A stretch of 64,000 nt of DNA from Celeribacter litoreus (GTDB lineage Bacteria > Pseudomonadota > Alphaproteobacteria > Rhodobacterales > Rhodobacteraceae). Shown one piece after another: positions 1 through 60,685 of this stretch. Position 1 is the stretch's first letter, and each line of letters begins with the position of its first letter. The notes beneath the pieces were generated by a model. That model did no database searches. It saw only the letters and a program-made list of their open reading frames with translations, and was not told the DNA's origin. Location of the stretch: NCBI RefSeq assembly GCF_020165855.1, contig NZ_JAIUFY010000007.1:62001-126000 (forward strand), in the 5' to 3' direction. The position numbers and the translations under genes were made by a program.

Positions 1-90
1 CGCCGAACTGTCGCGAAATACCGCGATATCATGAATATTCCGTCGTCCCTGCAACGCCGCCGCCAGAAAAAGGCAGAAGCGCTCGTTTGA
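1..90 (+). CDS. rpoN: RNA polymerase sigma-54 factor, 3' end (partial)
   Basis: Only the last 29 codons and the TGA stop are in the window; the gene begins upstream. The readable tail is RRTVAKYRDIMNIPSS followed by a basic end (LQRRRQKKAEALV). RRTVAKYR is the RpoN box (ARRTVAKYRE in the family), the C-terminal helix that reads the -24 promoter element. This signature is specific to sigma-54, so the call is secure despite the short fragment. The next gene starts 72 bases downstream behind a sigma-54 promoter. In many proteobacteria rpoN is followed by hpf/raiA and ptsN; here it is followed by catabolic genes, which suggests a second, island-associated copy (inference). Confidence 0.9.
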   Translation, partial: RRTVAKYRDIMNIPSSLQRRRQKKAEALV

Positions 91-109
91 CGCGTCACGC
101 CGGATTCTC

Positions 110-125
110 TGGCACATGGTTTGCG
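110..125 (+). promoter_or_regulatory. Sigma-54 promoter for the 163-3946 operon
   Basis: TGGCACA-TGGT-TTGCG matches the -24/-12 consensus with the required ten bases between GG and GC. Transcription should start near 136, about 27 bases before the TTG start of the first catabolic gene. It lies 19 bases after the rpoN stop. Confidence 0.9.
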
Positions 126-162
126 TTGACTCTGTCAGGAGAAGAGAGAGGGAGCGCAGGCC

Positions 163-969
163 TTGACGGACCAATTTACGGACATTCTTTACGAGATCGA
201 CGGCAACGTCGCCACGATCACGATCAACCGGCCTGAAAAGTTGAACTCGTGCACACCGCACACGATGCGCGAGATCGAAATGGCTCTCAATATGGCGGGC
301 AATGACCCCGTCGTGGGCGTCATCGTCTTTACCGGCGCGGGGGAAAAGTCCTTCTGCACGGGGGCCGATGTCTCGCAACAGCGTGACGGCAAGATGGGCA
401 CCACTGGCCCGCGGGAATTCTCGCCGCCCTATCTGACGTTCAGCCAGTGCCCCAAACCGATCATCGCCCGCGTCAACGGCTATGCCGTCGGTGGCGGCAA
501 CCACTTTGCCTACTTCTGCGATTTCACCATCTCCGCAGATCACGCGATCTACAGCCAGAGCGAACCGCGCGTTGCCTTTCCGACCTCGGGTCCGGTGATC
601 AGCTACCTCGTGCGTGTCATCGGCCATAAACGCGCCCGCGAGATGTGGATGCTCGGCCGCAAATACGATGCGCAGACCATGTATGACTGGGGTCTCGTGA
701 ACGCTGTCGTGCCGATGGCCGATCTCGATGCCGAAGTGAAGAAATGGTGTGACGAGCTGCTCGCCGTCGCCCCCACCTGTCTCAAGGTCTACAAAGCGAC
801 CTTTGTGCAGGAATTCCAGGATCTGCTCGGGCAGGGCGACAGTCTGCGTCGCTGGCTCGTGCCGGACGATTACCGCGAAACGGAACAACGCGAGGGCACG
901 ACCGCTTTCCTCGAAAAGCGCAAGCCCGACTATTCCCGCTTCCGTGCCGCACCTGAAAAGAAGGATTGA
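163..969 (+). CDS. Crotonase-superfamily enzyme of the MenB/BadI type
   Basis: 268 aa enoyl-CoA hydratase/isomerase-fold protein acting on a CoA thioester. It has TINRPEKLNS near residue 21, the oxyanion-hole region CTGAD, and GYAVGGGNHFAYFCD near residue 106. The segment VIGHKRAREMW and the C-terminal FLEKRKPDYS place it near MenB/BadI, ring-closing or ring-opening CoA enzymes. However, the MenB/BadI active-site stretch GSFDxGYG is replaced by AFPTSGPV, and the first hydratase Glu is His115, while the second Glu is kept (Glu134). The reaction is therefore not predictable. The start is TTG: no in-frame ATG lies nearby and GAGAGGGAG sits 8 bases upstream. It is the first gene of the operon and its stop overlaps the next start (TGATG). 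Confidence 0.8.
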   Translation: MTDQFTDILYEIDGNVATITINRPEKLNSCTPHTMREIEMALNMAGNDPVVGVIVFTGAGEKSFCTGADVSQQRDGKMGTTGPREFSPPYLTFSQCPKPIIARVNGYAVGGGNHFAYFCDFTISADHAIYSQSEPRVAFPTSGPVISYLVRVIGHKRAREMWMLGRKYDAQTMYDWGLVNAVVPMADLDAEVKKWCDELLAVAPTCLKVYKATFVQEFQDLLGQGDSLRRWLVPDDYRETEQREGTTAFLEKRKPDYSRFRAAPEKKD

Positions 970-1367
970 TGACCATGGCTTCGACACTCGCGAATGGTGA
1001 CAGCGCCCCGTACTTTGAAGGGGCCGAACAGGGCAAACTGCTGTTCCAGAAATGCACCTCCTGTGGCGAGGTCCAATTCCCGCCGCGCCATCACTGCGCA
1101 AAGTGCTGGGAGGCGGATCTCGAATGGACCGAGAGTGAGGGCAAGGGCGAGGTGGAAACCTTTACCATCGTGCGCCGTGCGCCGCTCGCCGCGTTTCGGG
1201 ACAAAGTGCCCTATGTCGTGGCTTCGGTCATCGTGTCCGAAGGCGTGCGCATGATTGCGTCGCTGACGGGGGAGGATGCGCTCGACGTGGCGATCGGCGA
1301 TGCCGTGACCGTCGATTTCGCGCCTGACGCCGATGGGAACACCCTTCCGGTGTTCCGTCGCAGCTAA
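969..1367 (+). CDS. DUF35 zinc-ribbon/OB-fold acyl-CoA-associated protein
   Basis: 132 aa. The N-terminal zinc ribbon is formed by Cys29, Cys32, Cys43 and Cys46 (CTSCG then HHCAKC), followed by an OB-fold domain with the family segment VETFTIVRRAP. DUF35 proteins act as partners of thiolase-like (SCP-x/Ltp2) enzymes, closing or organising their acyl-CoA site. The natural partner here is the Cys-less thiolase-like protein at 6704-7870 on the opposite strand (inference). The ATG overlaps the stop of the preceding gene, implying translational coupling. Confidence 0.85.
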   Translation: MTMASTLANGDSAPYFEGAEQGKLLFQKCTSCGEVQFPPRHHCAKCWEADLEWTESEGKGEVETFTIVRRAPLAAFRDKVPYVVASVIVSEGVRMIASLTGEDALDVAIGDAVTVDFAPDADGNTLPVFRRS

Positions 1368-1400
1368 CCCACGTTCGAACGGACACTGAAAGGACACCAC

Positions 1401-2246
1401 ATGGCAGATACCGCCCCAAAGACCCCCCGTAGCCCGCTCGAAACCTTTGCCCCCGATGTGCTGAAAGGCAAAGCCGCCTTTGTCACTGGCGGTGGCACCG
1501 GCATCGGCTTTGGCATCGCCCGCGTTCTGGGCCTGCTCGGTGCGAAAGTATGCATCGTCAGCCGCAAGGAAGACGTGCTCCAGAGCGCCGTCGAAAAACT
1601 CGCCGCTGAGGGCATCACCGCGACCTATTCCGTCACCGACATCCGCGATTTCGACGCGGTTCAGAACGCCGTGGATCACTGCGTTGCCGAGCTTGGCGGG
1701 CTTGATATCCTCGTGAACTGTGCGGCGGGTCTGTTCCACAGCCCTGCGGAGAACCTGACCGAAAACGGGTTCAAGGTCCTCGTCGACATCAACCTCAATG
1801 GCGCATGGGCCTGTTGTAAAGCCGCGTTTGAACCGCTCCGCGCAGCGCCTGACGGTGGCCGGATCGTCAACATCGTGTCACCGTTTGCGTGGCTGAGCTG
1901 GCCGGGATCGGTCAACGCCGCTGCCGCAAAGGCGGGTCTCATCTCCATGGCGCACACGCTCGCCGTCGAGTGGGGTCGTTACAACATCCACGTAAACAAC
2001 ATCGCGCCAGGTCCGATTGGCGGCACGGGCGGGATCAACCGCATGGCCGACGATCCGACTCGCTTTGCCGAGGAGATGGAGCGCACCGCGCTTGGCCGTG
2101 TGGGTCAGATCGGGGATATCGCGGAGGCCGTGGCCTATCTCGCCTCGCCTGCCGGCTCGTTCATCTCCGGCGCGGACCTCTTGGTTGATGGCGGGCGTCA
2201 GTATAACGTCGTCCCTTCCAAAGTTCGCAATTTGCACGCGCTCTAA
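1401..2246 (+). CDS. SDR oxidoreductase, 2,4-dienoyl-CoA reductase (DECR)-like
   Basis: 281 aa classical-length SDR. The nucleotide site TGGGTGIG is at residues 29-36 and the NCAAG motif near 106. The normal catalytic Tyr of YxxxK is absent: Lys177 is kept but residue 173 is Ala (VNAAAAKAG). That, with LAVEWGRYNIHVN and the IAPGPIGGT segment, matches the 2,4-dienoyl-CoA reductase branch, in which the Tyr is naturally missing. The likely role is NADPH-dependent reduction of a conjugated dienoyl-CoA during degradation of an unsaturated or ring-derived acyl-CoA. A similar protein is encoded at 22457-23266. The ATG follows AAAGGACACCAC. Confidence 0.8.
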   Translation: MADTAPKTPRSPLETFAPDVLKGKAAFVTGGGTGIGFGIARVLGLLGAKVCIVSRKEDVLQSAVEKLAAEGITATYSVTDIRDFDAVQNAVDHCVAELGGLDILVNCAAGLFHSPAENLTENGFKVLVDINLNGAWACCKAAFEPLRAAPDGGRIVNIVSPFAWLSWPGSVNAAAAKAGLISMAHTLAVEWGRYNIHVNNIAPGPIGGTGGINRMADDPTRFAEEMERTALGRVGQIGDIAEAVAYLASPAGSFISGADLLVDGGRQYNVVPSKVRNLHAL

Positions 2247-2270
2247 GGGTGCGTGCCGGAGACGCCCGTG

Positions 2271-3125
2271 ATGTTTGATCGACTGAAACGCACTGAATCC
2301 GCCGTCGTGTCCTATTCCGGCGCGGTGAAACGCTGGGAGTGTGACCGCAACGGGCATATGAACGTGCAGTTCTATGTGCGGGCGTTTCAGATGGCGTCCG
2401 AAGTGCTCGCGACGCTCGTGCTCGGGGAAAATCCGGGCACGCAAAGCTCCGATCTGCGGCACTACCGGTTTCATGGCGAACTGTTCAGCGGTGAGGCCAT
2501 GCATATCCAGTCCTCGCGCATCGCCGACGGCGAGTTTGCGGGCTGGGTGCTCCACCGGATGTTCAAGGGCGCGCGTCTCTCCGCCACGGCGATTGAACGG
2601 CCCGCCTATCCGGTTGAGGGCCTTCCCGCGTGCCGTCCAGAGGCGCTTGAGAAAGCTTTGCCGCGCGGGCTTTCCCCGACGGCGGAGCGGGCAGGGGGCC
2701 TGTCCGACACTCTTTCCGCCTCACCGGTTGGCGTGCTGCGGCCCTCCGAACTCGACCACCACGGGGCGGTGCAATGGAATGCGTTGACGGCGCTGTGTTC
2801 GAATGCGTCCCACGGATTTCTCGAACAGATCGGTCTCACGGCGGACTGGGTGAACACCAGCAACTGCAACCGGATGGCGGTCGAAATGTCGATTGCACGC
2901 CACGGTCTCGGCGCCGCCGGGGATACGGTGGCGATCCGCGCAGGAATTGCCGACGTTGCGTCGCGGTCCTTCACCATGCGGATGGAGGTGGTTCACGGGG
3001 TGACGGCCGCGCCGCTCGCGACCGTCGAACAGCTTTGCCTCGTCGTTGATCTGGAAAGCCGCAAGCCCGTCATGGTGCCCGAATTCGTCCGCACCGCCGC
3101 CGCGCGCTACGGGATGGGATCATGA
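2271..3125 (+). CDS. Double-hotdog acyl-CoA thioesterase-like protein 1
   Basis: 284 aa with two hotdog (4HBT-like) halves. The first carries RWECDRNGHMNVQFYVRAF near the N-terminus, the D-x-N-x-H-x-N active-site helix of this thioesterase group; the second half begins around GVLRPSEL. The role is probably hydrolysis of a CoA thioester, releasing CoA or removing a dead-end intermediate. I chose the ATG at 2271, 9 bases after CCGGAGA; a GTG at 2253 is an in-frame alternative with a poorer ribosome site. The next gene overlaps by 4 bases (ATGA) and encodes a similar protein. Confidence 0.7.
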   Translation: MFDRLKRTESAVVSYSGAVKRWECDRNGHMNVQFYVRAFQMASEVLATLVLGENPGTQSSDLRHYRFHGELFSGEAMHIQSSRIADGEFAGWVLHRMFKGARLSATAIERPAYPVEGLPACRPEALEKALPRGLSPTAERAGGLSDTLSASPVGVLRPSELDHHGAVQWNALTALCSNASHGFLEQIGLTADWVNTSNCNRMAVEMSIARHGLGAAGDTVAIRAGIADVASRSFTMRMEVVHGVTAAPLATVEQLCLVVDLESRKPVMVPEFVRTAAARYGMGS

Positions 3126-3946
3126 GCGCGCCGATGACGACGTTGCACGGCTTTGTGCCTGCGTGGGAAATCGATGCGAACGATCACTGGAACACAGCCT
3201 TCTACCTGCGCAGTTTTCAATATGCATCAGAGCGGTTCGCAGAGGAGGCAGGTCTCCCCGCATCGCCGCCGCAGGTTCTGCACACCCGCTTTTTCCGCGA
3301 GTTGCGGCATCAGAAGACGTTCACCGTCGAGTCCCACCGGATCGACACGGCGCAGTCTGGCTACGACGCGCTGCATCTGATGCGGGATCAGACCACGGGA
3401 AAGGTGGCCGCCGCGTCTTTGGAGATGCGCGCGGGATTGCCGCCTGTGATCGAAGAATTTGACGCGACCAACTACGCGCCGCGAAGCCTCCCCGTCGGGC
3501 CGGACACGCCGGTGGATGCGACAGAGATGCTGCGCGACGGGCGGGCGACCGTGTCGCACGCAGGGGTTCTCCGGCCCGATGATTTCGACGCGGAGGGGCG
3601 GCTTTTGTCCCATGCGATCCACATGCGTGTCTCCGAAGGCAACAGCCACCTCTGGCATCATGTAGACGTGACGCCAGATGACTTCTATGGACGTGGCCTT
3701 GGGCGCGCAATTGTCGAGCACAAACTGTCGCGCCACGGCGCGGCCAAACCGGGCATGGCGATCCGACAGGTATCCTATTTTGATAATTTCGGCGGCAAGT
3801 CCGTTGGTTTGACGCACCAAGTTGAGGACCTCACGACCGGCGCAGTGCTCTCGATCATCCGCACGACGACGCTCGTCCTTGATCTCAAAGCCCGCAAATC
3901 CGTTGCCTTGCCCGACGATCTGATCCAGCGCCTCAACCGCGCCTAA
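3122..3946 (+). CDS. Double-hotdog acyl-CoA thioesterase-like protein 2
   Basis: 274 aa, similar in layout to the preceding gene: WEIDANDHWNTAFYLRSF (the same D-x-N-x-H-x-N helix) at the N-terminus, then a second half starting near GVLRPDDFD. The tandem pair may form a heteromer or split two substrates. It is the last gene of the operon and ends just before a pair of strong hairpins. Specificity cannot be predicted from the sequence. Confidence 0.7.
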   Translation: MSAPMTTLHGFVPAWEIDANDHWNTAFYLRSFQYASERFAEEAGLPASPPQVLHTRFFRELRHQKTFTVESHRIDTAQSGYDALHLMRDQTTGKVAAASLEMRAGLPPVIEEFDATNYAPRSLPVGPDTPVDATEMLRDGRATVSHAGVLRPDDFDAEGRLLSHAIHMRVSEGNSHLWHHVDVTPDDFYGRGLGRAIVEHKLSRHGAAKPGMAIRQVSYFDNFGGKSVGLTHQVEDLTTGAVLSIIRTTTLVLDLKARKSVALPDDLIQRLNRA

Positions 3947-4051: not shown

Positions 4052-5254
4052 TCAGACAGCTTCGATGATCATGGCCGTGCCCTGACCGACGCCCACGCAC
4101 ATGGTGCAGAGCGCATAGCGCCCGCCGCGGCGTTTGAGTTCGTAGGCGGCGGTCATCACGAGACGGGTGCCCGACATGCCGAGCGGGTGCCCGAGTGCAA
4201 TCGCGCCGCCGTTCGGGTTCACGTGCTCCGCATCATCCGGCACACCGAGTTCGCGCAAGGTGGCGAGGGCCTGGCTCGCGAAGGCTTCGTTCAACTCGAT
4301 AACATCCATGTCCTCGATCTTGAGACCCGCGCGGGCGAGCACCTTTTGCGAGGCGGGGACAGGACCGATGCCCATGACGCGCGGCGGCACACCGGCGGCG
4401 GCCATGGCGACGACGCGGGCCATCGGTTTGAGGCCGTGCTGATCGACCGCGCCCTGATTGGCGAGGATCATCGCCGCCGCCCCGTCGTTCACGCCGGAGG
4501 CGTTGCCGGCGGTCACGGTGAGATCCGGCCCGTTCACGCCGCGCAGTTTGGCGAGCTTTTCGGCGCTCGTGCCCGGGCGCGGGTGTTCGTCGGTGTCGAA
4601 GATGATCGGATCGGCTTTGCGCTGTGGCACGGAGACGGGCGCGATCTCGTCGGCAAAGATGCCTTTCTCATGCGCCGCTTGCCAACGGGCCTGCGAGCGG
4701 GCGGCAAAGGCGTCCTGATCTTCGCGGCTGATGTTGTAGTCCGCTGCCACGTTGTCGGCGGTTTGCGGCATGGAGTCTGTGCCGTGCTCCGCATTCATTT
4801 TCGGGTTGATGAAGCGCCAACCGATTGTCGTGTCGTAGACCGCGTTGTTGCGGGTGAAGGCGCTCGTGGCTTTGGGCATCACGAAGGGGGCGCGGCTCAT
4901 GCTTTCCACCCCGCCTGCGATGACGAAATCGTAGTCGCCTGCACGGATACCGCGCGAGCCTGCGCCCACGGCGTCCATGCCGCTCGCGCAGAGGCGGTTC
5001 AATGTGGTGCCGGAGACATTCACCGGCAGTCCGGCGAGGAGCGCGGCCATGCGCGCGACGTTGCGGTTGTCTTCGCCAGCCTGGTTTGCGGAGCCATAGA
5101 GCACCTCGTCGAGAGCGGACCAATCGACGTCGGGGTTGCGCTCCATGAGGGCTTTGATCGGCAGCGCGGCCAGATCGTCGGCGCGGATCGAGGACAGCGC
5201 GCCGCCGTAGCGTCCGATCGGGGTGCGGATGGCGTCGCAGATGAATGAATCCAT
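4052..5254 (-). CDS. pcaF: 3-oxoadipyl-CoA/acetyl-CoA thiolase (PcaF/PaaJ family)
   Basis: 400 aa, full length. It cleaves a 3-oxoacyl-CoA with CoA to acetyl-CoA plus a shortened acyl-CoA. Cys89 (NRLCASGM) is the acylated nucleophile, His356 (ALGHPLG) and Cys386 (CVGVGQG) the other catalytic residues. The C-terminal third, with NPNGGAIALGHPLGMSG, is typical of the PcaF/PaaJ branch, which handles dicarboxylyl-CoA substrates; this fits a pimeloyl/adipoyl-type product after ring opening. It is the last gene of the leftward operon and is separated from the gene before it by two hairpins (5299-5381). The exact chain length handled is inference. Confidence 0.85.
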   Translation of the reverse strand: MDSFICDAIRTPIGRYGGALSSIRADDLAALPIKALMERNPDVDWSALDEVLYGSANQAGEDNRNVARMAALLAGLPVNVSGTTLNRLCASGMDAVGAGSRGIRAGDYDFVIAGGVESMSRAPFVMPKATSAFTRNNAVYDTTIGWRFINPKMNAEHGTDSMPQTADNVAADYNISREDQDAFAARSQARWQAAHEKGIFADEIAPVSVPQRKADPIIFDTDEHPRPGTSAEKLAKLRGVNGPDLTVTAGNASGVNDGAAAMILANQGAVDQHGLKPMARVVAMAAAGVPPRVMGIGPVPASQKVLARAGLKIEDMDVIELNEAFASQALATLRELGVPDDAEHVNPNGGAIALGHPLGMSGTRLVMTAAYELKRRGGRYALCTMCVGVGQGTAMIIEAV

Positions 5255-7991: not shown

Positions 7992-8007
7992 CGCAAACTC
8001 CGTGCCA
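7992..8007 (-). promoter_or_regulatory. Sigma-54 promoter for the 7870-4052 operon
   Basis: On the - strand: TGGCACG-GAGT-TTGCG, a full consensus match. Predicted start near 7980, about 110 bases before the ATG at 7870. It is divergent from the promoter at 8070. The 323-base gap 7871-8193 holds these two promoters and a perfect repeat GGGAC-T-GTCCC at 8030-8040 between them. Confidence 0.9.
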
Positions 8008-8069: not shown

Positions 8070-8085
8070 TGGCACGCGAGTTGCG
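8070..8085 (+). promoter_or_regulatory. Sigma-54 promoter for the acyl-CoA dehydrogenase at 8194
   Basis: TGGCACG-CGAG-TTGCG, a full -24/-12 match. Predicted start near 8097, roughly 97 bases upstream of the ATG at 8194. Confidence 0.9.
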
Positions 8086-11891: not shown

Positions 11892-11907
11892 CGCAATCGT
11901 TGTGCCA
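11892..11907 (-). promoter_or_regulatory. Sigma-54 promoter for the molybdopterin subunit gene
   Basis: On the - strand: TGGCACA-ACGA-TTGCG. Predicted start near 11880, 66 bases before the ATG at 11814. The 364-base gap 11815-12178 holds this and the divergent promoter at 12046. Between them are a perfect repeat CTGTT-A-AACAG (11942-11952) and the palindrome TGTGCACA (12021-12028), possible activator sites. Confidence 0.9.
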
Positions 11908-12045: not shown

Positions 12046-12061
12046 TGGCATAGGGTTTGCA
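12046..12061 (+). promoter_or_regulatory. Sigma-54 promoter for the TRAP transporter operon
   Basis: TGGCATA-GGGT-TTGCA, GG-N10-GC spacing. Predicted start near 12073, about 106 bases upstream of the ATG at 12179. Confidence 0.88.
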
Positions 12062-13318: not shown

Positions 13319-13335
13319 TCAATAAAATGCCACGT

Positions 13336-13362
13336 CACCGTCCGGCCCCGTGCCGGGCGGTG
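13336..13362 (+). repeat. Intercistronic hairpin after the binding-protein gene
   Basis: CACCGTCCGGC (13336-13346) pairs with GCCGGGCGGTG (13352-13362) around loop CCCGT, with one T-G wobble. There is no T-run. Such hairpins after binding-protein genes commonly protect the upstream mRNA and raise binding-protein yield over permease. Confidence 0.65.
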
Positions 13363-13388
13363 GATACACACAATCGGGAGAGCGTAAC

Positions 13389-15265: not shown

Positions 15266-15283
15266 GACTTAACCCGAAACGCC

Positions 15284-15303
15284 CCGGACCCCGTGTGGTC
15301 CGG
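15284..15303 (+). repeat. Hairpin between dctM and the aldehyde dehydrogenase gene
   Basis: CCGGACC/GGTCCGG, a perfect 7-bp stem with loop CCGTGT. Without a T-run it is probably an mRNA processing or stability element inside the operon. Confidence 0.45.
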
Positions 15304-15332
15304 CAGGCGGGGTGTAACCAAAGGATATCGAA

Positions 15333-16820: not shown

Positions 16821-16830
16821 GACCAGATAG

Positions 16831-16860
16831 GTCGGGCGTCATAGTGCGCCCGGCTGTTTT
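16831..16860 (+). terminator. Weak intra-operon hairpin with short T-run
   Basis: GTCGGGCG (16831-16838) pairs with CGCCCGGC (16847-16854) with one wobble, followed by TGTTTTC. It may attenuate transcription between the two dehydrogenase genes. Confidence 0.4.
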
Positions 16861-16877
16861 CAAAGGGAGAGGTTCAG

Positions 16878-19155: not shown

Positions 19156-19171
19156 TGCAATTTTTGTGCCA
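19156..19171 (-). promoter_or_regulatory. Sigma-54 promoter for the AbrB-family gene
   Basis: On the - strand: TGGCACA-AAAA-TTGCA, full consensus. Predicted start near 19144, 95 bases before the ATG at 19049. The 385-base gap 19050-19434 holds this and the divergent promoter at 19243, and I see no gene in it. Confidence 0.9.
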
Positions 19172-19242: not shown

Positions 19243-19258
19243 TGGCACGGCGATTGCG
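19243..19258 (+). promoter_or_regulatory. Sigma-54 promoter for acyl-CoA dehydrogenase 2 and the GMC oxidoreductase
   Basis: TGGCACG-GCGA-TTGCG, full consensus. Predicted start near 19270, leaving a 165-base leader before the ATG at 19435. Confidence 0.9.
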
Positions 19259-22360: not shown

Positions 22361-22376
22361 TGGCACTCAATTTGCG
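22361..22376 (+). promoter_or_regulatory. Sigma-54 promoter for the 22457-25028 operon
   Basis: TGGCACT-CAAT-TTGCG with GG-N10-GC spacing, 14 bases after the GMC oxidoreductase stop. Predicted start near 22388, 69 bases before the ATG at 22457. Confidence 0.87.
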
Positions 22377-27333: not shown

Positions 27334-27349
27334 AGCAATTCGCATGCCA
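27334..27349 (-). promoter_or_regulatory. Sigma-54 promoter for the NDP-forming acyl-CoA synthetase
   Basis: On the - strand: TGGCATG-CGAA-TTGCT with GG-N10-GC spacing. Predicted start near 27322, 106 bases before the ATG at 27216. Divergent from the promoter at 27410. Confidence 0.85.
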
Positions 27350-27409: not shown

Positions 27410-27425
27410 TGGCACGGCATTTGCA
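27410..27425 (+). promoter_or_regulatory. Sigma-54 promoter for the CoxG/S/M-like operon
   Basis: TGGCACG-GCAT-TTGCA, full consensus. Predicted start near 27437, 53 bases before the ATG at 27490. An inverted repeat TGAAA-N5-TTTCA at 27375-27389 lies between the two divergent promoters. Confidence 0.9.
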
Positions 27426-30368: not shown

Positions 30369-30384
30369 TGCAATTTTTATGCCT
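30369..30384 (-). promoter_or_regulatory. Probable sigma-54 promoter for the cyclase-family gene
   Basis: On the - strand: AGGCATA-AAAA-TTGCA. The GG-N10-GC core is intact and the only departure is A for T before GG. Predicted start near 30357, 33 bases before the ATG at 30324. Only 24 bases separate it from the divergent promoter at 30409. Confidence 0.75.
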
Positions 30385-30408: not shown

Positions 30409-30424
30409 TGGCCCGTGATTTGCA
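30409..30424 (+). promoter_or_regulatory. Sigma-54 promoter for etfBA
   Basis: TGGCCCG-TGAT-TTGCA with GG-N10-GC spacing. Predicted start near 30436, 74 bases before the etfB ATG. Confidence 0.82.
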
Positions 30425-32344: not shown

Positions 32345-32360
32345 TGGCATGCCTTTTGCT
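32345..32360 (+). promoter_or_regulatory. Sigma-54 promoter for the CoA-transferase gene at 32393
   Basis: TGGCATG-CCTT-TTGCT with GG-N10-GC spacing. Predicted start near 32372, 21 bases before the ATG. Confidence 0.86.
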
Positions 32361-42577: not shown

Positions 42578-42585
42578 TCCCTAGA

Positions 42586-42612
42586 GCCGGCCGCCGCCGC
42601 CCGGTGGCGGCT
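42586..42612 (+). repeat. Hairpin after the second binding-protein gene
   Basis: GCCGCC and GGCGGC arms in a G+C block between the binding-protein and fused permease genes, followed by TGTGCCTTTT. It may partly terminate transcription or protect the binding-protein mRNA. Confidence 0.4.
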
Positions 42613-42640
42613 GTGCCTTTTGGAGCGCTGAAAATACGCC

Positions 42641-49762: not shown

Positions 49763-49778
49763 CGCAATTCCTGTGCCA
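49763..49778 (-). promoter_or_regulatory. Sigma-54 promoter for the 49713-47481 operon
   Basis: On the - strand: TGGCACA-GGAA-TTGCG, full consensus. Predicted start near 49751, 38 bases before the ATG at 49713. Confidence 0.9.
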
Positions 49779-49846: not shown

Positions 49847-49862
49847 TGGCACAACTTTTGCG
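49847..49862 (+). promoter_or_regulatory. Sigma-54 promoter for the ring-opening operon
   Basis: TGGCACA-ACTT-TTGCG, full consensus. Predicted start near 49874, 95 bases before the ATG at 49969. An inverted repeat CTGTT-N8-AACAG lies between this and the divergent promoter at 49763. Confidence 0.9.
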
Positions 49863-50748: not shown

Positions 50749-50757
50749 GGTGATCCA

Positions 50758-52374: not shown

Positions 52375-52377
52375 TTG

Positions 52378-53148: not shown

Positions 53149-53845
53149 CGGGCAGATTATCGTAACAGGCGGCTCCAAAGGGATCGGGGCCGCGATCGCA
53201 GAGGAGCTGCAGGGCCGTGGCTTTGACATCGTGTGTCTGTCCCGCTCCGGCGGCGGCAGCATCGGCCACCAGATCGCCTGCGACATGACTGACGAGGCGG
53301 CGGTGAAAGCCGCGTTTGAGGAGGCCGCCGCGCGTGGTCCGATCGCGGGTCTCGTGAACAATGCGGGTGTGCATATCGGCGGCTCGATTGCGGATCTGAC
53401 TGTGGAGAGCTTTGACAAAACCATCGCGCTCAACGCGACCGCCGTCATGGTCGCCGCGCGCGAGGTCTATCCGCACCTGCGCGAAAGCGGCGGAACCATC
53501 GTCAATATCGGCTCTTTCTTCGACAAACTCGGCGTGCCCGACAACCTCGCCTACTGCGCCTCCAAGGCGGCGGTGGCGGCGATGACGCGCTGCATGGCGG
53601 TCGAATGGGCCCGTGACGGCATCCGCGTGATGAACGTCGCGCCCGGCTACATCGAAACCGATCTCAACCGTGATTTTCTGGCGCGCGAAAAGGTCAAGGC
53701 ATGGATGGCACAACGCATCCCGACCGGCGCACCAGGCAAGCCTGAAGACGTGTCCAAACTCGTGGCCGCGATCTTTGACGAACAAATCAACTTCCTGACC
53801 GGCGAGACAATCTACATCGACGGCGCACAAGGGATGAACCACTGA
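53141..53845 (+). CDS. SDR dehydrogenase (BadH-like role)
   Basis: 234 aa classical SDR with an intact active site: Ser125 (NIGS), Tyr138 and Lys142 (YCASK), and the nucleotide motif TGGSKGIG at residues 9-16. It should oxidise a hydroxyacyl-CoA; in this operon the 2-hydroxycyclohexanecarboxyl-CoA to 2-oxo step is the missing reaction. It is short, and the sequence is closer to general SDRs than to BadH itself, so the role rests on gene order. The ATG lies inside the end of the previous gene. Confidence 0.72.
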   Translation: MANGQIIVTGGSKGIGAAIAEELQGRGFDIVCLSRSGGGSIGHQIACDMTDEAAVKAAFEEAAARGPIAGLVNNAGVHIGGSIADLTVESFDKTIALNATAVMVAAREVYPHLRESGGTIVNIGSFFDKLGVPDNLAYCASKAAVAAMTRCMAVEWARDGIRVMNVAPGYIETDLNRDFLAREKVKAWMAQRIPTGAPGKPEDVSKLVAAIFDEQINFLTGETIYIDGAQGMNH

Positions 53846-55011
53846 TGAATATGTATGAACGCTTACTGAGCTACCGTAACTGGAGCGACGACGAACAGGC
53901 CATTCTCGATCAGGTCCAGCGCATGACCAATGAGGTCATCGCCCCCAACGCAGAACACATCGACGCAACCGGCGAATTTCCGTGGAAGAACGTCGAGGCG
54001 ATCAACGCGCTCGGCCTCAATGCCGTGTTCGTGCCTGAGGAATATGGTGGGATGCCGATGCGCTTCCGTCTCTACCTCGAGATCGTGTCGATCATCTCCG
54101 AGGCCTGCGCCTCCACAGGCATCATCTATGCCACGAACTATCACGGTATGAAGCCGCTGATCGAATACGGCAACGACGAACAGAAAGAGCGCCTGCTGCC
54201 CTGCATCGCAGAGGGTGGTCTTGGCGCGCTAGCCATCACGGAGCCGACCGCAGGGTCCGATGCGACGGGCATGAAGACCTCCTTCACGCCGGATGGTGAC
54301 GACATTATCCTGAAGGGCAACAAGGTCTTTATCTCCAACGGCGATGTGGCCGACCGCTATCTCGTCTTCGGAAAATGGTCCGAGATCGACGACCCAAAAC
54401 GCGCGATTTCCGCGCTGATCCTCGAAAAAGGGTCCGAAGGGTTCAGCGTCATCAGCAAAGAGAAAAAGATGGGTCACAATGGCTCGTCCACCTGTGCGCT
54501 CGCGTTCGACAACGTGCGCGTGCCGCGCAAGAACCTTTTGTGCGAACCGGGCGACGGTCTCAAAATCCTGCTCGGTTCTCTCAACCGCTCGCGTCCGTCT
54601 GTCGCGGCCCATGCCCTCGGCATCGCGCGCGCCGCGTTCAAGGACATGGTCGCATACGGCAGCGACCGCGTGCAGAGCCGCAAGAAAGTGCTCGAATTCC
54701 AGGGCAACCAATTCACGCTCGCTGACCTCGCGGGTGAATTGCTCATGGCGGAGAAGTGGCTCGATTACGTCGCTGACCTCATTGAAGCGGGTGAAACCGA
54801 CTTCGGCATGGAAGCCTCTCTCGCGAAACTGCGCGCCTCTGATCTCGCCATGAAGATGGCGACCGAATGCGTCCAGTTCCACGGCGGCTACGGCTACTGC
54901 CGCGACTACCGCGCGGAACGGCTCATGCGCGACGCCAAAATCACCCAGATCTGGGAAGGCACCAATCAGGTTCACCGCCAACTCATCGGACGGAGTTTCA
55001 TTCAAAAATGA
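53845..55011 (+). CDS. Acyl-CoA dehydrogenase 3 (AliB-like role)
   Basis: 388 aa. AITEPTAGSDATGM is the flavin loop, HGGYGYCRDYRAERLMRDAKI the C-terminal signature, and Glu371 in WEGTNQVHR the catalytic base. It is less similar to the enzymes at 8194 and 19435 than those are to each other. In this operon it would desaturate the ring acyl-CoA before hydration, with ETF as electron acceptor. Start and stop both overlap neighbouring genes (TGATG and ATGA). Confidence 0.88.
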   Translation: MNMYERLLSYRNWSDDEQAILDQVQRMTNEVIAPNAEHIDATGEFPWKNVEAINALGLNAVFVPEEYGGMPMRFRLYLEIVSIISEACASTGIIYATNYHGMKPLIEYGNDEQKERLLPCIAEGGLGALAITEPTAGSDATGMKTSFTPDGDDIILKGNKVFISNGDVADRYLVFGKWSEIDDPKRAISALILEKGSEGFSVISKEKKMGHNGSSTCALAFDNVRVPRKNLLCEPGDGLKILLGSLNRSRPSVAAHALGIARAAFKDMVAYGSDRVQSRKKVLEFQGNQFTLADLAGELLMAEKWLDYVADLIEAGETDFGMEASLAKLRASDLAMKMATECVQFHGGYGYCRDYRAERLMRDAKITQIWEGTNQVHRQLIGRSFIQK

Positions 55012-56516
55012 CCAATATCAAGAAAGTCGCCGTCTGCGGCGCAGGCGGCACCATGGGTGCGGGGATTGCCATCGTGGCGGCACGTGGCGGGTTTGAAACG
55101 ATCTGCTTTGACATGTCTGCCGAGGGTCTCGCACGCTCGCGCAAGAACGCGGAGAAGTTCTTTGGCAAGTCGGTTGCCAAGGGCCGGATGAGCCAGGAGG
55201 ACGCCGATGCCGCTCTCGGGCGCATGTCGGATTCCACCGATCTCAACGACCTCGCCGATTGCGACCTGATCATTGAGGCGATCTTTGAGAGCCTTGAGGT
55301 CAAAAAGGATCTGTTCGGCAAGTTGAACGGCATCTGCAAAGCCGAGACAATCTTTGCTTCGAACACCTCGACCCTGTCGATCACCGAGATTGCGGGCGGC
55401 TCCGGTCGTGACGACCGTGTGGTCGGCATGCACTTCTGTCTGCCAGCGGAGGTGATGAAACTCATCGAGATGTCGCGCGGCATCAACACCTCTGCGGAGA
55501 CCTTTGACACCGCATGGGCATGGACCGAGGCCTGCAAACAGATTCCGGTGGAAACGCAGGACAAGCCGGGCTTCATCCTCAACGCGCTCTTGGTTCCGTT
55601 CAATAACGACGTGATCCGTGCCATCGAGGCGGGCCTTTGCTCTGCCGAGGACATCGACCTCGCGATCAAATCGGGCCTTGGCTACAAGATGGGGCCGTGC
55701 ACTCTGTTGGACCTGATCGGTCTCGACACGCAGGTGCGTCTGGGGGAAGCGTTCTATCCGATCACGCTCGACACCCGCGCCTCCGTGCCGCCGCTCTGCC
55801 GCCGTATGGTGGCTGCCGGTCGTCTGGGCAACAAATCCGGCTCCGGCCTGCTCACCGCACCGGCTGCGGAGAAGGCCACAGAAGCCCCCGCCTATAGCAT
55901 CGCGTCTGCGGGCGAGAGCCGTTCCTTTGCGGAGGGTGACGCCTTCCTCGGCGGTGCGAGTGATGGGGCGCCTGTCACGATCCACCTCGGCGGTGGGTTT
56001 GCGCCGGACGACAGCAAAACCGCCGTTCTGGTCGAACTCGACACCGAATGCCTCGGCGTTCACACGGGTGAGGACATGGGGCGCGAAGGCTCCAATGCAG
56101 TGGGCTTTGCCCGCTACCGCAACGGCAATGATGCGCCGTCGAACCTCATTGAACTCGTCAAGCAGCCGAACACCGATGCCGCCGCGCTCGCCGCTGCGCG
56201 GGCTGTGTTCGAGGTCGCGGGCTTTGACGTCGTGGTCTGCGCCGACCAACCGGGCCGCATCGTGGACCGCCTTGTCCGTCCGAAATACAACGACGCGCTG
56301 CGCTTCCTCGATGAGGGTCTCGCGAGTGCGGCGGATATGGACAAGACCTGCTGCATGGGTCTCGGCTATCCGGACGGTCCGATCGAGCGCGTCGTGCGCG
56401 GCGGTCTTGCCCGTCACTTCGACGTGACCACCGCCATCGCGGACATGACCGGCCAGAAGGGCTATGCCCCCGCGCGTGCCGCTGTCGTGGCCAAAGCGCG
56501 CGAGGCTGCGGAATGA
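55008..56516 (+). CDS. 3-hydroxyacyl-CoA dehydrogenase 1
   Basis: 502 aa with two dehydrogenase C-terminal domains. The Rossmann motif GAGGTMGAG lies at the N-terminus and the catalytic His in VVGMHFCLPAEVMKLIEM. The usual HFFNP sequence has changed to HFCLP, so substrate preference may differ from the paralogue at 58670. It oxidises a 3-hydroxyacyl-CoA to the 3-oxo form during shortening of the ring-opened acyl-CoA. The ATG overlaps the previous stop. Confidence 0.85.
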   Translation: MTNIKKVAVCGAGGTMGAGIAIVAARGGFETICFDMSAEGLARSRKNAEKFFGKSVAKGRMSQEDADAALGRMSDSTDLNDLADCDLIIEAIFESLEVKKDLFGKLNGICKAETIFASNTSTLSITEIAGGSGRDDRVVGMHFCLPAEVMKLIEMSRGINTSAETFDTAWAWTEACKQIPVETQDKPGFILNALLVPFNNDVIRAIEAGLCSAEDIDLAIKSGLGYKMGPCTLLDLIGLDTQVRLGEAFYPITLDTRASVPPLCRRMVAAGRLGNKSGSGLLTAPAAEKATEAPAYSIASAGESRSFAEGDAFLGGASDGAPVTIHLGGGFAPDDSKTAVLVELDTECLGVHTGEDMGREGSNAVGFARYRNGNDAPSNLIELVKQPNTDAAALAAARAVFEVAGFDVVVCADQPGRIVDRLVRPKYNDALRFLDEGLASAADMDKTCCMGLGYPDGPIERVVRGGLARHFDVTTAIADMTGQKGYAPARAAVVAKAREAAE

Positions 56517-57646
56517 AAGGGGCTCTCGACGGAATTCGGGTGCTCGATTTCTCGACGCTTTTGCCCGGGCCGATGGCCACGCTGATCCTCGCCGAAGCAG
56601 GCGCAGAGGTCATCAAGGTCGAACGCCCCGGTCGCGGCGAAGAGATGCGCAGCTATGTTCCGAAATGGGGCGGGAGTGACAGTTCCAACTTTCACCTCCT
56701 GAACCGTGGTAAAAAGAGCATCGCGGTCGACCTGAAAGACCCTAAGTCCCGCGCCAAACTCACGCCGCTGATCGAGAGCGCCGATATCGTGATGGAGCAA
56801 TTCCGCCCCGGTGTCATGGCGCGTCTCGGCCTGTCCTACGACGACATGCGCGCGATCAATCCGGACATCATCTATTGCTCGATCACCGGCTACGGCCAGA
56901 CGGGTCCAAAGGCGATGGTCGCGGGTCATGACCTCAACTATCAAGGCGACGCTGGCATGGCCGCGCTGAGCCTCGGCACGCCCGAGGTGCCCGTCATGCC
57001 GCCTGCGCTCACCGCCGACATTGCGGGGGGCACGTATCCGGCGCTGGTCAACATCCTCATGGCGCTTTGGCGGCGCGAGAAGACCGGCGAAGGCGCGCAG
57101 ATCGACATTGCGATGGCCGAAAACCTCTTTCCCTTCCTCTACTGGGCGCAGGGCGAGGGTCAGGTCACGGGCGATTGGCCGGGCAATGGTGATGCGCTCG
57201 TCACCGGTGGCACGCCACGCTACCGCCTCTACCCGACGTCTGACGGTCGCTTTGCAGCCATTGCGCCGATTGAGCAGAAGTTCTGGGAAGGGTTCTGCGC
57301 CGCGATCGACCTCGATCCCGCGCTCCGCGACGATGCGAAGGATCCGGCGGCAACAACCGCGCGTGTGGCCGAGATTCTGGCCAGCAAACCCGCGAGCCAC
57401 TGGGCCCCGATCTTTGAGGCGGCTGATTGCTGCTGTTCCATTGTGAACGGTCTCGATGAGGCCATGTCCGACCCGCATTTCCGGGCGCGTGGGGTGTTCG
57501 ATCATCAGATCACCGGCCCGGACGGATCGCAGATGCCTGCGCTCCCCGTGCCTGTGGCGCCCGCCTTCCGCGCGGCCACTGACGAGGCCCGCTCTGCCCC
57601 CGCGCTCGGGGCGGATAACGCGGCCTGTCTCGGATCAACGGACTAA
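56513..57646 (+). CDS. Alpha-methylacyl-CoA racemase-like family III CoA-transferase
   Basis: 377 aa of the CaiB/AMACR fold. His139 (AGHDLNY), Asp169 (LTADIAGG) and Glu254 (PIEQKFW) have exactly the spacing of His126, Asp156 and Glu241 in Mycobacterium tuberculosis MCR (30 and 115 residues). This supports racemisation at the alpha carbon of a 2-methylacyl-CoA rather than CoA transfer. Such an enzyme is needed when a methyl-branched acyl-CoA reaches a stereospecific acyl-CoA dehydrogenase, pointing to a branched or isoprenoid-like substrate (inference). Coupled to the previous gene by ATGA. Confidence 0.82.
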   Translation: MKGALDGIRVLDFSTLLPGPMATLILAEAGAEVIKVERPGRGEEMRSYVPKWGGSDSSNFHLLNRGKKSIAVDLKDPKSRAKLTPLIESADIVMEQFRPGVMARLGLSYDDMRAINPDIIYCSITGYGQTGPKAMVAGHDLNYQGDAGMAALSLGTPEVPVMPPALTADIAGGTYPALVNILMALWRREKTGEGAQIDIAMAENLFPFLYWAQGEGQVTGDWPGNGDALVTGGTPRYRLYPTSDGRFAAIAPIEQKFWEGFCAAIDLDPALRDDAKDPAATTARVAEILASKPASHWAPIFEAADCCCSIVNGLDEAMSDPHFRARGVFDHQITGPDGSQMPALPVPVAPAFRAATDEARSAPALGADNAACLGSTD

Positions 57647-57658
57647 AGGGGGATCGCC

Positions 57659-58663
57659 ATGAAAGCCGTCATCGTCCGCGAATTCACGCCTTTCGATCAG
57701 GCGCAGTATGGCGATTTGCCCGATCCGGAACCTGCCGAGGGCGAGGTCGTCGTCGATCTCGCCACGGCGGAAGCAAACTTTCCGGACATCCTCTATATCG
57801 AAGGAAAGTATCAGAAAAAGCCGCCATTTCCCTTTTCCCCCGGTCTTGCGGGGGCAGGGGTCGTGTCAAAACTCGGTGCGGGTGTCAGTGATCTGACGGT
57901 CGGGCAACGGGTGATGGTTCTGCCCTATTACGGGACTTACGCGGAAAAGATTGCGCTCCCTGCGGGCTACTGTTTTCCGATGCCGGACGAGATGCCGTTC
58001 GACGTCGCGGCGGCCTTTGGCCTCGTCTATCAAACCGCGTGGTTCGCGCTCACGGACCGCGGTGCGATGAAGGCGGGGGATACGGTCCTCGTGCTTGGCG
58101 CGACGGGCGGGGTCGGCATGGCGGCGGTGCAAATCGCCAAGGCGCTCGGCGCGGGCAAGGTGATCGCAGCCACCCGTGGCGAAGAGGGGGCCAAGACCGC
58201 CCTCGGGTTCGGCGCGGATGCGACCATTGATACGAGCGCGGGTGATCTGCGCAGTGAACTGCGCGACCGTGTGAAGGAACTCACCGACGGACAGGGTGCG
58301 GATGTTGTCATTGATCCGGTCGGCGGCGATGTGACGGGTGCTGCACTGCGCGCGATGGCGTGGCAGGGGCGGCTCGTGGTTGTGGGCTTTGCCTCCGGCA
58401 CCATTCCGCAGATCGGAGCCAATTATCTCCTCGTGAAAAACATCTCGGTGGGCGGTGTCCAATGGACCGACTACCGCGCCCGCCAACTCGACCGCGTGCA
58501 TGACGCGCAAACGCAGATGTTCGACCTTTGGCGCGCGGGCAAACTCGCCCCGCATATCGTCCGGCGTCTGCCGCTCGCCGACTTTGCCGAGGCGCTGCGC
58601 GCGCTTCAGCAGGCCAAGGTCGCGGGCAAAATCATTCTGACAATTCAAGAACCAGAGGAGTAA
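57659..58663 (+). CDS. Quinone oxidoreductase-like medium-chain reductase (zinc-free)
   Basis: 334 aa NADPH-dependent medium-chain reductase. The nucleotide site LVLGATGGVGMAAVQIAKALGA is the quinone oxidoreductase version, and there are no zinc Cys clusters. Relatives reduce activated double bonds, including enoyl-CoA and enone groups. In this operon it could saturate a pathway enoyl-CoA or enone; the exact reaction is unknown. RBS AAAGGGGGATCGCC. Confidence 0.8.
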   Translation: MKAVIVREFTPFDQAQYGDLPDPEPAEGEVVVDLATAEANFPDILYIEGKYQKKPPFPFSPGLAGAGVVSKLGAGVSDLTVGQRVMVLPYYGTYAEKIALPAGYCFPMPDEMPFDVAAAFGLVYQTAWFALTDRGAMKAGDTVLVLGATGGVGMAAVQIAKALGAGKVIAATRGEEGAKTALGFGADATIDTSAGDLRSELRDRVKELTDGQGADVVIDPVGGDVTGAALRAMAWQGRLVVVGFASGTIPQIGANYLLVKNISVGGVQWTDYRARQLDRVHDAQTQMFDLWRAGKLAPHIVRRLPLADFAEALRALQQAKVAGKIILTIQEPEE

Positions 58664-58669
58664 ATCCCG

Positions 58670-60094
58670 GTGACAGCACTCAGCACATCCTGCAGCATTG
58701 GCGTGATCGGCGCCGGAACCATGGGCGCAGGGATCGCGCAACTCGCGGCTGCCGCGGGCCATCCGGTCCTGTTGTTCGACGCCATGGACGGCGCCGCCGC
58801 GACAGGGAAGGCGAAGATCGGCAAGGGTCTCGAAAAACTCGTCGCACGGGGCAAGATGACCGAAGGTGACGTTGCCGCGCTCCTCGACCGGATTTCTGTC
58901 GCAGGGTCGCTGGAGGATTTCGCAGGGGTGTCTCTCGCCGTTGAGGCCATTGTCGAAAACCTCGACATCAAACGCAAAGTGTTCGGCCAGCTCGAAGAGA
59001 TCATGGCGGAGGATGCGATCCTCGGGACCAACACGTCTTCGATCTCCGTCACCTCCATCGGGCGCGACCTAAAACGTCCGGGGCAGTTGGTCGGCATGCA
59101 CTTCTTCAACCCCGCGCCGGTGATGAAACTCGTCGAAGTGATTTCCGGCGTGTCCACCGATCCGGCGGTCGCGGAGACCGTGTTTGACACCGCGGAGGCC
59201 TGGGGCAAGGTTGCGGTCCATGCGAAATCGACGCCCGGGTTCATCGTGAACCGCGTTGCGCGGCCCTATTATGCAGAGGCGCTGCGTCTCTATGAAGAAC
59301 AGGTGGCCGATCCCGCCACTCTGGACGCGCTCATGACCGAGGGGGCAGGGTTCCGCATGGGGCCGTTCACGCTCATGGACCTGATCGGGCATGACGTGAA
59401 CTATGCCGTGAGCACCTCCGTCTTTGACGCCTACTATCAGGAACCGCGCTTCCGCCCGTCGATTGCGCAGCTCGAACTCGTCAACGCGGGCCGTCTCGGT
59501 CGCAAGACGGGGCAGGGGTTCTATGACTACCGCGATGGTGCGGAAAAGGGCGAACCGCGCGCCGAAGCTGTGGCGGATGACGTGGACCAATTCGCGGGCT
59601 TTACGTTCGAAGCTCCGTTCGATTGCGGCACAGTCATGATCCAGCCCACCGATGGCCGCACGGCAAAAGCCGTCGCGCAGACCACGGGCAAAGCGACCAT
59701 CGTTTATGACCTCGTGGACAAGGCCTCCGGCAGCACCCGCGTCGCATTCGCCGCCTCTCCCGACGTCGCGCCGGACCAGATCGAGCGCTTTGTCGCCACG
59801 ATGTATCTACAGGGCCTGACCGCGACCCATCTACCGGACTGGCCGGGTCTCGTGGCGCTGCGCACGGTCGCGATGCTCGCCAACGAAGGCTTCGAAGCCA
59901 TGCTTCAGGGCGTGGCGGACGAAGACGGGATCGACAAGGCGATGCGCTTTGGTGTGAACTACCCCAAAGGGCCAATCGCATGGGCCAAAGAGATCGGTCT
60001 GACCCGCGTGCTCTCTGCCCTTGACGCCCTGCACGATATCACCGGCGACCCGCGCTACCGTGCCTCCATGGCACTGCGCATGGCCGCGAGCTAA
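58670..60094 (+). CDS. 3-hydroxyacyl-CoA dehydrogenase 2
   Basis: 474 aa. The Rossmann motif is GAGTMGAG, the catalytic His is in GMHFFNPAPVMKLVEV (the standard form), and a duplicated C-terminal domain follows. It oxidises 3-hydroxyacyl-CoA with NAD. There is no hydratase domain, so it is not a fused FadB-type protein. The start is GTG at 58670, set by AGAGGAG 9 bases upstream. It may act after the ring-opened dicarboxylyl-CoA has been desaturated and hydrated. Confidence 0.87.
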   Translation: MTALSTSCSIGVIGAGTMGAGIAQLAAAAGHPVLLFDAMDGAAATGKAKIGKGLEKLVARGKMTEGDVAALLDRISVAGSLEDFAGVSLAVEAIVENLDIKRKVFGQLEEIMAEDAILGTNTSSISVTSIGRDLKRPGQLVGMHFFNPAPVMKLVEVISGVSTDPAVAETVFDTAEAWGKVAVHAKSTPGFIVNRVARPYYAEALRLYEEQVADPATLDALMTEGAGFRMGPFTLMDLIGHDVNYAVSTSVFDAYYQEPRFRPSIAQLELVNAGRLGRKTGQGFYDYRDGAEKGEPRAEAVADDVDQFAGFTFEAPFDCGTVMIQPTDGRTAKAVAQTTGKATIVYDLVDKASGSTRVAFAASPDVAPDQIERFVATMYLQGLTATHLPDWPGLVALRTVAMLANEGFEAMLQGVADEDGIDKAMRFGVNYPKGPIAWAKEIGLTRVLSALDALHDITGDPRYRASMALRMAAS

Positions 60095-60118
60095 GCCAGA
60101 CGACGAGAGGAGGCGCGC

Positions 60119-60685
60119 GTGCCCCATCTTCCCTTCCTGCCCGAAAACGCAGGCCCGCCGAATGTGTTCAAACGCTACAAAGAGATCTACGGCCCGTTTT
60201 CCGAAATGAGCCAGGCTCTCATGAACGGGCCGTCGCCCCTGACGCCAGCGCAGCGCGAAATCATCCTCGCGTTCGCGGCGGGGGTGTCGGGGAACAACTT
60301 TGTTTTCACGGGCCACAGTGCGGTCGCCTATGCCCACGGGGTTGAGGAGGGTCTGTTGGAGGCGCTCGTTGCGGATCTCGACACCGCCAATGTCGCGGAT
60401 GATTTCCGCGAATTGCTGCGCTTTGTCCGCAAACTGATGCTCACCCCGTCAGAGATGGAACAGGCGGACGCCGATGAGGTATTTGCCGCCGGTTGGGACG
60501 AAGACGCCCTCCACAGCGGCATCGCCGTCGCAGGCCGCGCCGCCTTTATGCACCGCCTGATCGCCGGATGCGGCTTTGCCCCCCTCGATCCCGAAGTCGC
60601 CGCCAAACACGCCGCGAAACGGGTGCAAAACGGCTACGTCCAGATGTACGGGTTCCTGAAGGACAAGAAAGAGCGGTCGGCTTAA
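60119..60685 (+). CDS. AhpD/carboxymuconolactone decarboxylase-like protein lacking the redox Cys pair
   Basis: 188 aa helical protein of the peroxidase-related AhpD-like group. The family site CxxCxxH is degenerate: the Cys positions are Asn60 and Phe63, but His66 is kept (SGNNFVFTGH). Peroxidase activity through cysteines is therefore unlikely. It is the last gene of the ring-opening operon. The start is GTG at 60119 behind GAGAGGAGGCGCGC. Function unknown. Confidence 0.68.
   Translation: MPHLPFLPENAGPPNVFKRYKEIYGPFSEMSQALMNGPSPLTPAQREIILAFAAGVSGNNFVFTGHSAVAYAHGVEEGLLEALVADLDTANVADDFRELLRFVRKLMLTPSEMEQADADEVFAAGWDEDALHSGIAVAGRAAFMHRLIAGCGFAPLDPEVAAKHAAKRVQNGYVQMYGFLKDKKERSA

Follow-up and report, generated by a model that had tools for sequence, protein, structure and literature searches.

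Sigma-54 is usually described as a shared, general-purpose factor that serves many activators, and the question raised here is how nearly all operons of one accessory gene block come to lie behind sigma-54 promoters. The block, a CoA-thioester catabolic island of about 60 kb as judged from its gene content, lies in a 64-kb stretch of Celeribacter litoreus (C14:62001-126000, here called the window, with positions counted from its first base unless a contig or locus is given) within a 3.66-Mb genome that is 99.63% complete. An original prediction from this DNA had listed 15 promoters with -24/-12 elements and proposed all-or-none control by a single activator. We consider it very probable that a private switch runs the island, consisting of its own sigma-54 (RpoN), its own activator and the matching promoters, and that this switch is portable and self-contained. 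The sites, their enrichment and conservation, the gene content, the RpoN clade and the covariation are read from sequence; that the island runs under sigma-54, and does so in an all-or-none manner under a single activator, is a prediction.

All 15 sites are -24/-12 elements with GG-N10-GC spacing, and 13 of them carry the full consensus TGGCA[CT]N5TTGC. The other two, listed earlier as 30369(-), lowest base 30370, and 30409(+), read AGGCAT and TGGCCC. The minus-strand positions had been given one below the 1-based lowest base and are corrected here to 7993, 11893, 19157, 27335, 30370 and 49764. The sites and the genes behind them are as follows.

Site A, 110..124, + strand: before an operon (163-3946) for enoyl-CoA hydratase (ECH), OB-fold protein, short-chain dehydrogenase/reductase (SDR) and thioesterase; TGGCACATGGTTTGC; kept at the Salipiger and Celeribacter orthologues.
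Site B, 7993..8007, - strand: before thiolase-like, MaoC and ECH genes, the last gene being pcaF; pattern and plasmid orthologues.
Site C, 8070..8084, + strand: before an acyl-CoA dehydrogenase gene (8194-9393); pattern and plasmid orthologues.
Site D, 11893..11907, - strand: before a xanthine-dehydrogenase (XDH)-type large subunit gene (9475-11814); pattern, Pfam and plasmid orthologues.
Site E, 12046..12060, + strand: before genes for a TRAP transporter, aldehyde dehydrogenase (ALDH) and alcohol dehydrogenase (ADH) (12179-17975); pattern, Pfam and plasmid orthologues.
Site F, 19157..19171, - strand: before an AbrB-type membrane protein gene (17994-19049); pattern, Pfam and plasmid orthologues.
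Site G, 19243..19257, + strand: before acyl-CoA dehydrogenase and GMC oxidoreductase genes (19435-22347); pattern, Pfam and plasmid orthologues.
Site H, 22361..22375, + strand: before SDR, ECH and 3-hydroxyisobutyrate-dehydrogenase-like genes (22457-25028); pattern, orthologue in Salipiger only.
Site I, 27335..27349, - strand: before an NDP-forming acyl-CoA ligase gene (25096-27207); pattern, orthologue in Celeribacter only.
Site J, 27410..27424, + strand: before genes for CoxG and XDH small and medium subunits (27490-29270); pattern, orthologue in Celeribacter only.
Site K, 30370..30384, - strand: weaker (AGGCAT), before a cyclase-family protein gene (29299-30324); pattern, orthologue not found in the plasmid stretches read.
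Site L, 30409..30423, + strand: TGGCCC, before electron transfer flavoprotein (ETF) beta and alpha genes (30510-32185); pattern, orthologue in Celeribacter only.
Site M, 32345..32359, + strand: before a CoA-transferase III gene (32393-33610); kept in Celeribacter, absent at the best Salipiger match.
Site N, 49764..49778, - strand: before genes for a Zn-ADH (48661-49713) and DctP (47481-48626); pattern and plasmid orthologues.
Site O, 49847..49861, + strand: before an operon (49969-60685) for badI-like ECH, CoA ligase, ECH, SDR, acyl-CoA dehydrogenase, 3-hydroxyacyl-CoA dehydrogenase and CaiB; kept in Salipiger, and in Celeribacter at a second copy rather than the best-matching one.

The distance from site end to start codon ranged from 33 to 177 nt, corresponding to predicted leaders of 22 to 166 nt with the start codons that we chose, in agreement with the 21 to 165 given before. 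Six divergent gaps each hold a back-to-back pair, which accounts for 12 of the 15 sites. The description of nearly every operon as sigma-54 led was slightly generous: a dedicated site is lacking for the block at 33785-47405 (13.6 kb) and for pcaF (4052-5254), also when up to two mismatches are tolerated.

The pattern TGGCAYN5TTGC occurred 13 times in the window against 0.29 expected from dinucleotide shuffles, and none of 100 shuffles reached 13. With the looser pattern [TA]GGC[AC][CT]N5TTGC, 16 matches were seen (the 16th, at 33463, within a gene), compared with a mean of 1.22 and a maximum of 6 in 100 Markov simulations. Genome-wide, TGGCACN5TTGC had 17 matches: 10 in the window, an 11th about 17 kb to its left at C14:44721, and six elsewhere. 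The rest of the genome predicts 0.125 matches for the window (Poisson P = 2e-16), and the density was 164 per Mb in C14:44721-111861 versus 1.7 per Mb outside, a difference of about 100-fold. Counted with exact patterns instead of a weight matrix, an equal density elsewhere in the genome, which would have spoken against an island regulon, was thus not observed. Five of the six outside matches lie within open frames, and the base after TTGC in the six is C (four) or A (two). The remaining match is a strict site at C11:142227-142241 on the + strand (locus L173), and some 250 bp upstream of it lies another, looser one. It precedes an ATP-binding cassette (ABC) substrate-binding protein gene, which is a plausible trans member of the regulon outside the island.

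The genes for the sigma-54 and the activator were found at the left edge of the window.

rpoN 3' end, 1..90, + strand: end of a 544-codon open frame at L013:17456-19090 (about window -1544 to 90).
Activator gene, about window -3337 to -1676 (1.7 to 3.3 kb left of the window), divergent from rpoN: 553 amino acids.

The true rpoN start is probably about 60 codons into the open frame, and its stop at 90 lies 19 bases before site A. The predicted protein has the activator-interacting, core-binding and DNA-binding domains (PF00309, PF04963 and PF04552) above cut-off and the RpoN box ARRTVAKYR; a PF04552 search of the genome revealed no second rpoN. The activator gives the best PF00158 match of the genome (229 bits, domain at C14:59119-59622) and combines an AAA+ domain with Walker A and a GSFTGA loop with a Fis-type helix-turn-helix (PF02954). 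The loop variant GSFTGA is known to be functional (PMC4641369 and PMC11999139).

Six other NtrC-like proteins of the genome (L002-L006 and L008) were aligned with the activator, an alignment that omits the two weakest PF00158 matches, L010 and L011, which we take to be Clp-like. Five are gapped at the position of the GAFTGA loop, and the loop of L003 is degenerate, reading GANT with no aromatic residue; the Walker B acidic pair of L003 is missing too. It looks as if the rest of the genome had lost sigma-54 use. Among the six, one protein scores above the NtrX cut-off and a second comes closest to NtrC; a Rhodobacterales NtrC lacking the GAFTGA loop has been reported to act with sigma-70 (PMC10274813). 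The sole intact GAFTGA-type loop found is thus encoded next to the sole rpoN found, and the idea of one activator is supported by genome content. Apparently, the host has a single sigma-54 and a single competent activator, adjacent at the island edge, and since no other sigma-54 or intact-loop activator was found in it, the module looks self-contained.

The arrangement was found again on two plasmids. On a Salipiger abyssi plasmid, the same pair of rpoN and activator genes precedes the same ECH and OB-fold genes, and Celeribacter indicus pP73A has such a pair together with a reshuffled island and one more activator copy. Of 16 site-led genes sought, strict sites stood upstream of 11 of the 12 orthologues in Salipiger and 12 of 13 in Celeribacter; the stretch of about 9 kb at 75288-84425 of Salipiger pPABY4 lay outside this comparison, so that orthologues for sites I, J and L were not sought there. 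The exception in Celeribacter is operon O, whose best-matching copy lies behind a CoA-transferase gene and whose second copy has the site. The control consisted of 21 island genes that lack a site in the window: none of the 17 found in Salipiger and none of the 19 found in Celeribacter had one. Aligned divergent gaps had their sites in register in some cases and changed spacing in others. On pP73A (L026 and L025), not only the activator but also the CoA-ligase operon is present in two copies, and several of the genes share identical protein accessions.

Furthermore, we analyzed how far the pair has spread, using an alignment of five activators to search for activator loci. Among the best 80 of 143 loci examined, rpoN was divergent and adjacent in 18 (in L049, another, distant rpoN is nearby); these, the two plasmids and the C. 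litoreus genome are called linked below. In a tree of 65 RpoN rows, made after dropping fragments and duplicates, the linked RpoNs fall into a single clade of 22 (SH-aLRT 100), and with 18 more rows removed (near-copies, long branches and some others) the 47-row tree retained a linked clade of 18 with support of 100/99. The single unlinked row in the clade is L120, whose Mangrovicoccus genome has the activator too, on what appears to be a different contig. A family genome with four rpoN copies, G051, taken as C. sphaeroides, has all of its RpoNs outside the clade in the 65-row tree; three of them were included in the smaller one. The activators of linked loci likewise form one clade of 24 rows (20 linked and 4 unlinked, SH-aLRT 100; L064 and L103 were unreadable). 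As both clades span Rhodobacterales, Rhizobiales and Alcaligenaceae, transfer is indicated. The linked rpoN was the sole rpoN found in eight genomes (6 of the 18 linked-locus genomes, C. indicus and C. litoreus), and the five linked Rhizobiales hosts have two rpoN each; three RpoN matches were counted in S. abyssi SY10-16. At E <= 1e-120, the activator was detected in 1 of 198 family genomes, namely that of C. litoreus, and in 3 of 20 genus genomes. A different version of the module exists in the same genus in Celeribacter sp. PS-C1 (L034), with an RpoN that is 50% identical, and Alteromonas lipolytica (L044) has a clade activator with no rpoN adjacent. As judged from sequence, the pair has the attributes of a specialized one: an RpoN clade of its own, a cognate activator and its own promoter set.

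Promoters and proteins of the linked loci share further peculiarities. The base following TTGC (-11) was G at 57, A at 23, T at 17 and C at 2 of 99 sites from linked sources, versus T 64, A 21, G 17 and C 11 among 113 sites of 62 loci that have a related activator and no adjacent clade rpoN; sites that share a locus are not independent of each other, and chance matches are among them. Restricted to sites called upstream of genes, the counts were G 31, A 21 and T 12 (n = 64) for linked and T 50, A 14, G 11 and C 4 (n = 79) for unlinked loci (Fisher P = 8e-6 for G and 9e-8 for T). The crude gene caller placed 25 linked sites within genes (18 G, 4 T, 2 C, 1 A), many of them misplaced, including four promoters of the island itself; in the annotated records of the two plasmids, only one of 35 sites falls in a gene (C), and the other 34 are intergenic (G 19, A 9, T 6). 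The bias also holds outside the Rhodobacterales, where 23 linked sites (five Rhizobiales loci and one Alcaligenaceae locus) read G 18, A 4 and T 1, compared with T 36, G 7, C 4 and A 3 at 50 sites of 27 unlinked alphaproteobacterial loci; loci were picked by taxonomy for this comparison and every site was counted. In the RpoN recognition helix, what is mostly STVSRV elsewhere reads STV(C/S)RA in the clade, with A in 20 of 22 clade rows versus 5 of 43 others (V in 34), and region I has an I in 20 of 22 clade rows versus 0 of 43. The activator loop reads GSFTGA in 19 of 20 readable linked rows, compared with 6 of 59 readable unlinked rows (50 of which have GAFTGA) and 2 of the 4 unlinked rows within the activator clade. 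In C. sphaeroides, the -11 base and the cognate activators contribute to RpoN1/RpoN2 specificity (PMC11999139; cited also in PMC3538637).

From these data we lean towards a further claim, held with less confidence than the switch itself: that the module is orthogonal and horizontally mobile, with a distinct RpoN clade, a divergent PAS-type activator and promoters with G or A at -11 that have drifted together at the protein-DNA and protein-protein interfaces, and that it was regained, as a self-contained switch for one catabolic island and as the sole sigma-54 found, in a lineage whose other NtrC-like proteins have lost or degenerate GAFTGA loops. In the private switch as proposed above, transcription, sensing and insulation are predicted parts, and so are the directions in which the pair was transferred and in which residues and bases changed. 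The module would descend from one sigma-54/activator pair that moved among Rhodobacterales, Rhizobiales and Alcaligenaceae. Pair and promoters would have drifted jointly, the helix change from V to A going with -11 T to G/A and the altered residue of region I with the step from GAFTGA to GSFTGA; this joint drift probably insulates the module from a housekeeping sigma-54 where one exists. The activator, with at least one PAS-like domain, would sense the substrate, its ligand probably being a pathway intermediate or CoA thioester; binding would free the AAA+ ring, and the AAA+ domain would open closed complexes of the island sigma-54 at the 15 window promoters. The promoter located some 17 kb left of the window would be a further target, and the one on contig 11 may be another.

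The sensory part was examined in a model of the first 230 residues of the Salipiger activator (L027), which had a mean pLDDT of 85.5 and a pTM of 0.67. Its best fold matches were PAS domains, for example the one in CitA, and the N-terminal portion of DhaR. From the succession of strands and helices we read two PAS-like domains with a long helix after them; one of the domains is backed by the fold matches and the other is our own reading of the model. Pfam evidence for PAS was weak (best of five members 1.5e-5; C. litoreus activator 0.003, under the cut-off). A sigma-54 site with at most one mismatch precedes rpoN in 12 of 20 linked loci, which suggests positive feedback on rpoN.

Several observations weigh against the private switch or its co-drift. 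The -11 preference is a bias and not a rule, as the T at 12 of 64 linked upstream sites and the occurrence of A show, and the -11 base at the sites ahead of rpoN is mixed (G 4, A 4, T 4); the rpoN of C. litoreus itself has no recognizable sigma-54 site upstream. GSFTGA is present in the six unlinked activators mentioned, and the linked L045 has GAFTGA. As the linked rows form one clade, the covarying residues may go back to one change in the past; the promoter change is spread over many individual sites. Clade activators without an adjacent rpoN occur in Mangrovicoccus, Hoeflea, Alteromonas and one C. indicus copy. To these are added the 13.6-kb block without a site and the missing site M in Salipiger. 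Finally, no shared enhancer motif was found by dyad enumeration, motif expectation maximization (EM) or palindromic EM. In 36 regions of three species, dyad enumeration yielded only GC-rich dyads, the best of them at or slightly over the shuffle maxima, and the best scores of motif EM were little over shuffles; palindromic EM on 87 regions gave several motifs well over simple shuffles. The most enhancer-like of the latter, GTCGCGN6CGCGAC, was rejected, as it showed no enrichment near sites (72 copies versus 65.6 expected), and its one-mismatch copy at 10-27 falls in the rpoN coding end.

The lack of a common enhancer motif and the block without a site would also be expected if sigma-54 control were split among several activators, or shared with additional sigma-70 regulators, so that sub-regulons took the place of one switch. 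The two related activators of pP73A fit this picture, as does an IclR regulator at the left of the neighboring stretch; however, the C. litoreus genome yielded a single protein with an intact GAFTGA-type loop, and we regard sub-regulons as unlikely. Still less probable is a remnant, i.e., an ordinary host sigma-54 gene that happens to lie in the island, among inherited sites that no longer matter. Sigma-54 is indeed patchy in the family, with an RpoN over cut-off in 62 of 198 genomes, and the other NtrC-like proteins of the genome have lost or degenerate loops, but the island RpoN clusters with activator-linked RpoNs, away from the other sampled RpoNs including the four of the presumed C. sphaeroides, and the sites are retained at orthologous genes despite altered gene order. 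That matches to the short consensus may arise by chance in GC-rich intergenic DNA is in keeping with the 8 to 27 matches per genome in rpoN-less congeners, eight of the nine having been searched; for the island, chance is already refuted at the sequence level by the roughly 100-fold density and the conserved positions, and we give it next to no weight. The private switch remains the reading that we prefer.

Ligand-sensing activators of degradation operons are familiar from the XylR and HbpR systems, which act on one to a few promoters with the general sigma-54 of the host, unlike the 15 sites in the window with a dedicated sigma-54. Dedicated pairs are already known from Cereibacter (Rhodobacter) sphaeroides, namely RpoN1/NifA, RpoN2/FleQ and RpoN3/AprX (PMC11999139 and PMC7277832). 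As in these, one RpoN here goes with one cognate activator and one gene set; rpoN2 lies inside the fla1 locus, much as the island rpoN lies with its own genes, and the -11 base adds to RpoN1/RpoN2 specificity. The C. sphaeroides pairs serve nif, flagellar and xrpA genes, whereas the island pair serves catabolism, and the island rpoN is divergent from its activator, crosses classes and is the sole sigma-54 found in eight genomes. A mobile island that brings its own sigma-54 and activator is likewise known, namely the symbiosis island of Mesorhizobium loti R7A with rpoN2 and NifA2; in contrast to the present case, the host keeps a chromosomal rpoN1, rpoN2 is in the prxS operon and the function is nitrogen fixation (PMC3538637). 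What appears to be new is the catabolic version that crosses classes, with covarying promoter and protein changes and as the sole sigma-54 found in eight genomes. Among the papers listed by a literature search of titles and abstract openings, with subscription papers mostly outside its reach, none describes a catabolic island with its own rpoN and activator, and a text search for rpoN in PMC8874975 and PMC5071866 gave no occurrence.

Here sigma-54 would be a local component of an accessory pathway, moving together with its own promoters, and a portable module would account for the ability of a lineage in which sigma-54 has few functions or none to run an imported sigma-54 regulon straight away. 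The -11 shift from T to G/A, paired with RpoN and activator residues, would offer a natural series for studying sigma-54 insulation and a possible source of orthogonal expression parts. For function prediction, a gene behind such a promoter in such a host likely belongs to one pathway.

Pfam scans of the island revealed acyl-CoA dehydrogenases, ECHs, thiolases, SDRs, CoA ligases, CoA transferases, ETF, ALDH and ADH, together with an XDH-type oxidoreductase and TRAP and ribose-type ABC transporters. An Rfam scan of the window gave no match. As for plasmid markers, RepC (PF03428) is absent from the genome and tRNA from the stretches of contig 14 scanned; the host is probably a marine bacterium. 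Operon O resembles the cyclohexanecarboxylate (ali/bad) pathway in its order of activities (ring-hydrolase-like ECH, CoA ligase, hydratase, SDR, dehydrogenase), going by the pathway outline in PMC4547698. It was not assigned to this pathway, because all scores were far below the curated cut-offs (badI 211 versus 467.6, cyclohexanecarboxylate ligase 238 versus 792, cyclohexane-1-carbonyl-CoA dehydrogenase 274 versus 650). The XDH-type large subunit gene (9475-11814) sits 16 kb from the probable small and medium subunit genes and CoxG (27961-29270), each part having its own sigma-54 site. Furthermore, the gene at 42641-44788 encodes an ABC sugar-type permease fused to a strictosidine-synthase/SMP-30-like propeller (715 amino acids). 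A second, paralogous permease-propeller fusion lies left of the window at L013:4788-6899, and next to ABC genes on the Salipiger plasmid is a gene that is similar in length and annotated as SMP-30.

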